Source: a virus | Reading direction: 5' to 3' (one strand) | IMG/VR virus record: IMGVR_UViG_3300027782_000207 | Location: 1-34,231 of that record | Length of the DNA stretch: 34,231 nucleotides | In this document: positions 13,687 to 28,398 of the stretch, piece after piece | Layout: each line of letters begins with the position of its first letter | Numbering within the stretch: the stretch's first letter is position 1 | The notes under the pieces: generated by a model | The model's database searches: none | What the model was told of the DNA's origin: nothing | Seen by the model: the letters and a program-made list of their open reading frames with translations, nothing else | Program-made: the position numbers and the translations under genes

Positions 13687-13729
13687 TTGATAAAAAACAT
13701 ACAGAAAACTATATGTTAAGATAGCTACA
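13687..13729 (+). promoter_or_regulatory. Promoter and operator of the Cro/YdaS-like regulator, probably leaderless
   Basis: Two readings. (a) -35 TTGATA (13687-13692), 17-bp spacer, -10 TATATG (13710-13715). (b) Extended -10 TGTTAAGAT (13714-13722), which would put the transcript start at or next to the A of the ATG at 13729. The operator-like TTAAGATAGCTACA spans 13716-13729 and runs into the start codon. No Shine-Dalgarno is present, so the message is leaderless or nearly so, as for lambda cI from PRM. The arrangement implies autoregulation. Confidence 0.6.
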
Positions 13730-13944
13730 TGAACACAAACGACATTATCGAAACGCTCGGCGGTACGTTTTCCGTAGCTAAGCTATGCGGGGTAAGCCCG
13801 CCCGCGGTTAGTCAATGGCGAACCAATGGAATTCCTACGAATAAATTAGTATTGGTCGCGTTGCAATTAGAGAAAAAATCTAACGGGCAATGGACGCGAA
13901 AAGAAATACCGAATTGGCATCAAATCTGGCCCCGCTTACGATAG
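13729..13944 (+). CDS. Cro/YdaS-like helix-turn-helix regulator
   Basis: 71 residues. The helix-turn-helix is visible (about 14-36, FSVAKLCGVSPPAVSQWRTN then GIP), with the pattern of the YdaS/Cro group (LGGT at the start of helix 1, AVSQWR in the recognition helix, GIPTNKL after it). Role: binds short operators to switch early promoters. It is encoded divergently from the minus-strand early operon, and a 14-bp motif resembling an operator is found in its own promoter and in four others nearby. There is no CI-type partner with a peptidase domain and no integrase, so this may be a lytic-timing repressor rather than a lysogeny switch. Confidence 0.8.
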   Translation: MNTNDIIETLGGTFSVAKLCGVSPPAVSQWRTNGIPTNKLVLVALQLEKKSNGQWTRKEIPNWHQIWPRLR

Positions 13945-13950
13945 AATAAA

Positions 13951-14437
13951 TTGCCTTTAGCAAGCATGAAACGTAACAATGATAAGGGTCGTGTTTCACT
14001 AGCCTAGCTTTAGGGCTTGACTCCTCGGAAAGACGAGGGCATAATTAAATTGTTGTCTTGGCAGACGATGAATTTAAGCCGTTTTAGTGTGTATTTTGAT
14101 TCTCTTGCGCCTTGAAGCCGATAGAGAATGTCCCGAAAGGGTCTGCCAACAAAATACACTCTAAAGCGGCTTTTTTATTGGCCTTGGCAATTGGATTGCA
14201 AACCAAAGTTAGTTGCAAACAAAGAGGGACTCAGAACCCTGCCAAAATTAGTACGTCGCAAGTTGGAGGCTCTAACGACATACCAGCGGCTTGCGGCGCG
14301 TTTAGTAGACTGGGGGTAAGAGGATGAAATACTACAAACATCGGCGGCGAAGTTAGCACCGATTCCTCGCAAGGCTGACGGGTTCCGTGGCTCCGATAAG
14401 CATGGTTTAAGGCGACCCTAGGTAGGCTAGGTTCGTC
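13951..14437 (+). ncRNA. Candidate large structured phage RNA (about 490 nt)
   Basis: No supported gene between 13945 and 14575. Plus-strand hairpins: TTGC/GCAA (13951-13963); TGAAAC/GTTTCA (13967-13998); AGCC/GGCT (14001-14017); CCTCG/CGAGG (14023-14038); 23-nt arms (14076-14098 with 14150-14172) enclosing ATTCTCT/AGAGAAT (14099-14105/14123-14129) and CCC-GAAA-GGG (14132-14141); GTAcGTCG/CGACaTAC (14251-14283) with inner TTGGA/TCTAA; ATCGG/CCGAT (14340-14363); ACGG/CCGT (14378-14388); an 11-position hairpin closing on CCTAG/CTAGG (14411-14437). A 9-nt match (14058-14066 with 14141-14149) would form a pseudoknot. The GAAA loop fits only the plus strand. CAG/CTG is about seven times denser than in the rest. 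14441-14520 is A-rich and unstructured. I see no tRNA, tmRNA or RNase P signature. Giant phage RNAs such as GOLLD or ROOL are the closest known class; identity is not shown. Transcription could run on from the regulator promoter. Confidence 0.6.
14076..14172 (+). repeat. Long inverted repeat with terminator-like end inside the candidate RNA
   Basis: Arms 14076-14098 and 14150-14172 pair over 23 positions: 21 Watson-Crick, one G-U, one T-T mismatch. The base of the stem is AAGCCG/CGGCTT and is followed by a run of six T (14171-14176). This could end a shorter RNA (about 13951-14176) or be one arm of the longer RNA. Confidence 0.65.
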
Positions 14438-14520
14438 CACCAAAAAGCATCCCTAAAAGAACTACAAAGAAATAGCCAAAAACATAGACAAAAAATAGAT
14501 CAAAAGTACATATAAATAAT

Positions 14521-28358: not shown

Positions 28359-28368
28359 GTTAGTATCG

Positions 28369-28398
28369 GAGGGTAGGGGCAACCTTACCCTCTTTTTT
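28369..28398 (+). terminator. Strong intrinsic terminator after the capsid genes
   Basis: Ten-pair stem GAGGGTAGGG (28369-28378) with CCTTACCCTC (28383-28392), closed by a GCAA tetraloop, then TTTTTT (28393-28398). One G-T pair, no mismatch. This is the only classical intrinsic terminator I find in the late region. Confidence 0.9.

Follow-up and report, generated by a model that had tools for sequence, protein, structure and literature searches.

The window, i.e., the whole 34.2-kb virus record that was analysed, carries its left gene run on the minus strand. A Cro/YdaS-like helix-turn-helix gene on the plus strand (13729-13944), with PHROG matches to DNA-binding proteins and transcriptional repressors (best E 3e-11), is followed by a plus-strand run for replication initiation, methyltransferase, RusA, terminase, portal and tail functions, and the gene-free stretch under study sits at the junction of the two runs. 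From 13944, where the Cro-like gene ends, to 14576, where a plausible gene next begins, there are just short, mutually overlapping ORFs, in agreement with an earlier sequence-only reading that had found no supported frame in this gap. Related phages differ here by hairpin-sized insertions and deletions, which disrupt any reading frame; a coding gene was ruled out, no frame being conserved among relatives. The same reading had proposed a single structured phage RNA of ~490 nt ending at 14437. Compensatory changes, together with the lack of a protein frame in relatives, uphold the structured non-coding RNA; its extent requires revision, as two or three modules are present and the RNA runs on to about 14458. 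The region is thus a genuine non-coding RNA locus, made up of more than one RNA.

The dense structure attributed to the region is borne out by its folding energy, which for the entire stretch is -161 kcal/mol compared to -143 kcal/mol for shuffled sequences (z -3.05, with none of 100 shuffles as good). The bulk of this excess stems from its 5' half, here termed element A (z -7.2 for 14052-14177). Taken separately, the 3' half is no more stable than chance (z -0.46), and minimum-energy folding of the 3' module was dropped as uninformative; the structure of this half rests on covariation, not on energy. Frequent G-U pairs support an RNA of the plus strand. The hairpins listed previously are real (CCCGAAAGGG at 14132, CTCCTCG/CGAGG at 14021/14034 and CGCAAG/CTTGCG at 14257/14290), except that the CCTCG..CGAGG hairpin lies in a promoter spacer, upstream of the predicted transcription start. 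The supposed richness in CAG and CTG dissolved on counting, since the two triplets total seven rather than eight, a value reached by 28 of 675 windows of equal length, and composition is therefore no strong signal. An Rfam search of the whole stretch matched one family only, namely RF02932 (Betaproteobacteria-1 RNA), in the 3' half, so that the suggestion of a new class fails for this half and holds for element A, which has no matching Rfam family. Kinship with GOLLD or ROOL was not supported, as no match to either was obtained at the gathering level or at E<=10. A tRNA gene search of the window found none, and a plasmid collection yielded no match. What is new at this locus is element A, three pseudoknots in the 3' module, and a set of alternative large leader RNAs that occupy one slot.

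A sigma70-like promoter, TTGACT-17-CATAAT (14017-14045, plus strand, 10/12 match), is the joint best match within 13.6-33.5 kb and contains the dyad CCTCG-gaaaga-CGAGG in its spacer, which is compensated in the related locus L239. The predicted transcription start, at about 14053, coincides with the 5' end of element A. This arrangement recurs: of 56 copies of element A, 27 show a promoter of at least 9/12 within 55 nt, compared to 8% in shuffles, with a nearly constant spacing of the -10 box. Among AT-rich members of the RF02932 family, many carry TTGCAA-18-TAAGAT, from which the start falls on the RNA's 5' end; in many such members without element A the promoter adjoins the RF02932-type RNA itself. 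No sigma70-like promoter was seen in most GC-rich members. As a separate observation, the 99 bp after cro (13949-14046), promoter included, share 86% identity with phage MW202520.1 (L239), which exceeds the expectation for a spacer. In L243, L247, L264, L267 and their relatives, GTTTAAAC palindromes are repeated ~50-200 nt upstream of the RNA, between a cro-side terminator and the RNA promoter; these are possibly repressor operators.

Element A (14053-14176, plus strand) begins with a small hairpin, P1 (TTGTC/GACGA, 14053-14068), whose loop carries a 5' kissing strand, S1a (14058-14066). It continues into a 21-bp terminator hairpin, P2 (14077-14171, with arms 14077-14098 and 14150-14171), and ends in a U tract (14171-14176). 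A 3' kissing strand, S1b (GTCTGCCAA, 14141-14149), lies inside P2, abuts its 3' arm and is complementary to 14058-14066. Evidence for this kissing helix first came from eleven diverse examples, in which a perfect helix joining a strand located before P2 to one within P2 averages 7.7 bp, compared to 5.2 bp in shuffles (maximum of 500 shuffles, 6.2). Two pattern scans for element A then gave 37 distinct matches, two of which were judged chance-like; in the real matches the inner strand lies directly against the terminator's 3' arm, with constant spacing (mean 7.84 versus 5.21, maximum 5.73) and the outer kissing strand is located in the loop of P1. In 28 aligned elements, P2 is paired in 99.3% of cells, with eight pairs altered on both sides, while no scored cell lacks any of the six core kissing pairs, five of which show changes on both sides. 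The covariation score of the kissing helix is 0.771, against 0.202 for shuffled and at most 0.17 for slid controls. The window's own copy scores 100 bits with the corresponding model R2, of whose training set it is a part. On this comparative evidence, element A represents an undescribed type of predicted terminator with a conserved kissing helix. The outer kissing pairs of the longest S1 share bases with P1, so that S1 and P1 compete, and we infer that the element works as a switch.

Between element A and the 3' module, a further element, I (14196-14239, plus strand), was recognized by eye: a TTGCAA-ACCAAAGTTAG-TTGCAA hairpin followed by GGG-ACTCAGAA-CCC. It was likewise recognized in L113, L081, L384, L383 and L306, with a compensatory change in CGCAG/CTGCG.

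The 3' module is a member of RF02932, its Rfam portion (14256-14383, plus strand, full model 1-120) scoring 79.5 bits (E 3e-13), above the gathering score of 49.4. The Rfam entry describes an sRNA gene without a stated function; a search of the available literature found nothing on RF02932 or Betaproteobacteria-1 RNA, and the probable source paper of the family appeared in NAR. A DNA pattern taken from the conserved core of the family retrieved dozens of viral relatives, and two further patterns were used; a pattern scan of genome contigs returned mostly chance matches and a few real members (L145 and L198). The closest relatives, L113 and L081, show about 80% similarity over 14198-14450 and share little further upstream, indicating that conservation extends beyond the Rfam model on the 3' side. 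A 32-sequence alignment was built into a model of 209 positions, R1, with which about 70 further full-length members were found outside the training set, nearly all with E below 1e-15. In the 84-source search, R1 placed the full module of the window at 14249-14458 (159 bits, E 2e-48; the window is part of the R1 training set). The 120-nt Rfam model thus spans part of an element of ~210 nt with nine helices.

In the 84-member alignment, 89.9% of cells are paired compared to 66.3% in shuffles, and the covariation score is 0.637, against 0.206 in shuffled controls, which ignore phylogeny, and at most 0.11 in slid controls, which preserve it. The three consensus helices of Rfam are all kept in the window: H1 (14258-14263 with 14289-14294) is 97.6% paired with double changes at six of six pairs; H2 (14302-14307 with 14330-14335), imperfect in the window's own copy, is 83% paired and its outer four pairs covary strongly; and S2 (14352-14357 with 14374-14379) is 99% paired. 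Three pseudoknots, found by eye and by unbiased covariation, were absent from the model used for alignment. PK1 (14283-14286 with 14310-14313), which is missing from the Rfam structure, is 94.9% paired with double changes at four of four pairs; PK2 (14341-14344 with 14359-14362), interleaved with S2, is 94.9% paired with double changes at three of four; and PK3 (14321-14324 with 14364-14367) is 70.7% paired with double changes at four of four, this figure being taken from an alignment not fitted to PK3. Considered by themselves, the pseudoknots score 0.615 in covariation (0.226 shuffled, at most 0.15 slid). As deduced from these alignments, the module is a chain of interleaved predicted pseudoknots missing from the Rfam structure line. 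A three-way covariation of columns 154/215/264 in alignment A2 was rejected as reflecting clade structure, not pairing.

Towards its 3' end the module contains hairpin H5 (14384-14406; 93.2% paired, five of five pairs with double changes) and a terminal hairpin, H6 (14411-14438), identified in the 84-member alignment, after which CACCA and a second copy of the word AAGCAT follow (14439-14450, the word itself at 14445-14450). Conservation ends there, without a terminator. The first AAGCAT (14398-14403) lies on the 3' side of H5, and its recurrence just after H6 forms a direct repeat that varies among phages and matches inside each phage: the longest common word averages 6.06 within compared to 4.21 between members (maximum of 200 shuffles, 4.56). 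Pairing of the H5 5' arm with the second copy is likewise better for a phage's own copy (duplex energy -5.73) than for those of other members (-5.17; best of 100 shuffles, -5.57), which suggests that the repeat permits two alternative pairings of this arm.

The two halves of the locus are not obligate partners, as element A was not detected in most RF02932 members. Conversely, a model search of the 51 loci that the element A scans had yielded found the RF02932 module in four, while L238, L239 and most of the scan loci have element A without it. Other element A loci carry one of two large RNAs without an Rfam match, namely family B/C (~270 nt, alignment A3; L364:2494-2798 and relatives), which has one 3' domain and two alternative 5' domains, and family D (~250 nt, alignment A4; L374:3532-3821 and relatives). 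Compensatory changes occur in 23 of 45 predicted pairs of B/C and in 17 of 34 of D. The core of family D, GAGCCGGTGCAAATCCG, resembles a cobalamin-riboswitch motif; a cobalamin riboswitch (GGTGCAAATCC) was rejected, there being no model match even at E<=5. Among loci retrieved solely through their B/C or D sequence, about 30 of 53 have element A directly upstream, linking it to a large RNA, and none has the RF02932 module. In L450 and L467 a B-type 5' domain is joined to a D 3' domain, showing that domains recombine. With element A followed by RF02932, B/C or D in different phages, the slot is modular. From L386:2338 onward yet another sequence (CCGTATACATGATG...) follows element A, perhaps a further type of leader RNA. 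In L238 (MW202674.1, 4881-5377), the hypothetical ORFs annotated on the minus strand, antisense to both element A and a family C RNA, are probably spurious.

Carriers are consistent in the sense orientation of the RNA and in its place at the operon start. For RF02932 members the downstream 3 kb lie mostly on the same strand in 54 of 63 cases and the upstream sequence in 24 of 65; for element A the corresponding counts are 35 of 42 and 10 of 43. The typical order is a leftward operon, a rightward cro, the RNA and a rightward gene run. In GC-rich members primase on one side and NinB/RusA/HNH/terminase genes on the other flank the RNA. In MW202545.1, a complete genome, almost every structural gene is on the same strand downstream of the RNA, and in Acidovorax phage AP1, the cultured carrier, the RNA is flanked by primase and the terminase run. 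Of 399 genomes sampled from the order to which the Variovorax carrier belongs, five have RF02932 above the cut-off, and one Burkholderiales genome can hold three copies. In carriers or related phages, matches to int-alpA RNA (RF02996, L239:1992-2058, minus strand) and C4 antisense RNA (RF01695, L017:1656-1745, plus strand) were also noted. The next gene is not conserved and its distance varies from 12 to over 300 nt, which speaks against a gene-specific riboswitch and suits an operon-wide role. Terminators are not enriched after the RNA (4 of 83, compared to 4.1% of random pieces). Sense-strand intrinsic terminators are scarce in the following 8 kb (six in 288 kb, against 30 antisense), so a need for antitermination gains no support from that test; the window itself has a strong one at 28368-28393 (28371), inside the late gene run 14 kb downstream. 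A search for the Q antiterminators PF03589 and PF06530, with a positive control in E. coli, gave nothing over cut-off in 44 carrier records including the window, some of which are fragments.

Comparison among relatives establishes the predicted modules and their pairings, the promoter position in those lineages that have one, the strand, the position in the operon and the missing terminator. The region is very probably a composite untranslated leader that heads the long rightward/late operon of the phage. How such a leader would act is a more tentative matter, and an effect in cis on transcription is proposed here with some reserve. The promoter after cro would start RNA at about 14053, and element A would fold either as the strong terminator P2 or into the kissing contact S1, serving as a gate. 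Transcripts that pass it would form the pseudoknotted module near the start of the message and, as no terminator follows, the module would remain part of the operon message while forming beside RNA polymerase. It could then act in cis on the elongating polymerase by antitermination or antipausing, in the manner of HK022 put, which is the precedent for such a role, and the leader would serve replication genes first and packaging and structural genes thereafter. We infer contact between RNA and RNA polymerase and altered elongation; for an RNA that is promoter-proximal, untranslated, unterminated and densely knotted, and that heads a 30-50-kb operon, the best reading is a leader with an effect on the very transcription complex that makes it. 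Counting against this, most GC-rich members have no visible sigma70-like promoter. As a whole, a composite leader acting in cis on RNA polymerase is the best explanation, at somewhat below an even chance.

It is unlikely, if still worth considering, that the module is cut from the leader and persists as a stable RNA acting in trans, with RNA polymerase, the ribosome or a host defence as conceivable targets, in which case phages may vary the RNAs of this slot as they vary anti-defence genes. The compact pseudoknotted fold, the sharing of one early-expressed slot by several unrelated RNA types and the possible triplication in a Burkholderiales genome fit such a role, but the consistent sense orientation at the operon start, the coupling to the start site in AT-rich lineages and the lack of a terminator of its own do not. 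Element A starts at a predicted start, ends in a strong hairpin with a U tract and occurs without the RF02932 module, as would a terminated sRNA in its own right, comparable to lambda 6S RNA from PR'-tR', with the downstream RNA as a separate gene; its position upstream of B/C or D in over half of those loci and the absence of a second promoter match listed between element A and the module in the window make this rather improbable. Slightly less probable again is a leader that stabilises the 5' end or controls translation, a ligand-sensing switch on the message included: the leader position, the two pairings open to the H5 5' arm and the resemblance of element A to an attenuator are set against the unconserved next gene and distance, and no conserved pairing with a ribosome site was found. 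Conservation at the DNA level, as a replication origin, packaging or recombination site, may draw on the location among early replication genes and on the direct repeats and dyads, but is already disfavoured and very improbable given G-U pairs and compensatory changes, which mark selection on one RNA strand, and a position relative to replication and packaging genes that differs among lineages.

Returning to the proposed cis-acting leader, these data provide the orphan family RF02932 with a complete structure, a role in the genome and a carrier in culture, and reveal that phages swap large structured RNAs within one leader slot. Should RNA polymerase prove to be the target of even one of these RNAs, RNA-only antitermination, of which HK022 put is the standing example, would be far commoner and more varied, and testable in vitro. 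The broadest form of the proposal, a widespread and modular RNA-only control of elongation in which a kissing-loop-gated terminator and at least three exchangeable pseudoknotted RNAs modify RNA polymerase over an entire lytic operon of 30-50 kb, instead of the N and Q proteins doing so, is rather doubtful.

Among known systems, the module shares its three Rfam helices with RF02932, whose model lacks the pseudoknots, H6, the direct repeat and the leader context. GOLLD and ROOL are similarly large structured phage RNAs with pseudoknots; however, GOLLD members are often longer than 800 nt, and either kind is frequently found close to tRNA islands (PMC12286853), while the window has no model match and no tRNA genes. 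In lambda, tR' is a terminator between the start and the late genes, and in some lineages element A is placed alike, after its promoter as tR' is after PR'. The PR'-6S RNA-tR' order of promoter, short leader, strong intrinsic terminator and late genes is found in the window, with the differences that its terminator has a conserved kissing helix and that no Q homologue exceeds the cut-off in the 44 carrier records. Lambdoid phages exchange antitermination modules at this slot. The put RNA of HK022, acting in cis near PL and PR and requiring no phage protein, suppresses pausing and termination, and occupies the slot where lambda uses nut/N (PMC9378689). Like put, the window RNA is untranslated, near a lytic-operon promoter, next to cro and apparently without a dedicated phage protein; the likeness seen is one of position and not of sequence or fold: put consists of two simple stem-loops in ~70 nt, whereas the module of the window, three times longer at 210 nt, has nine helices.
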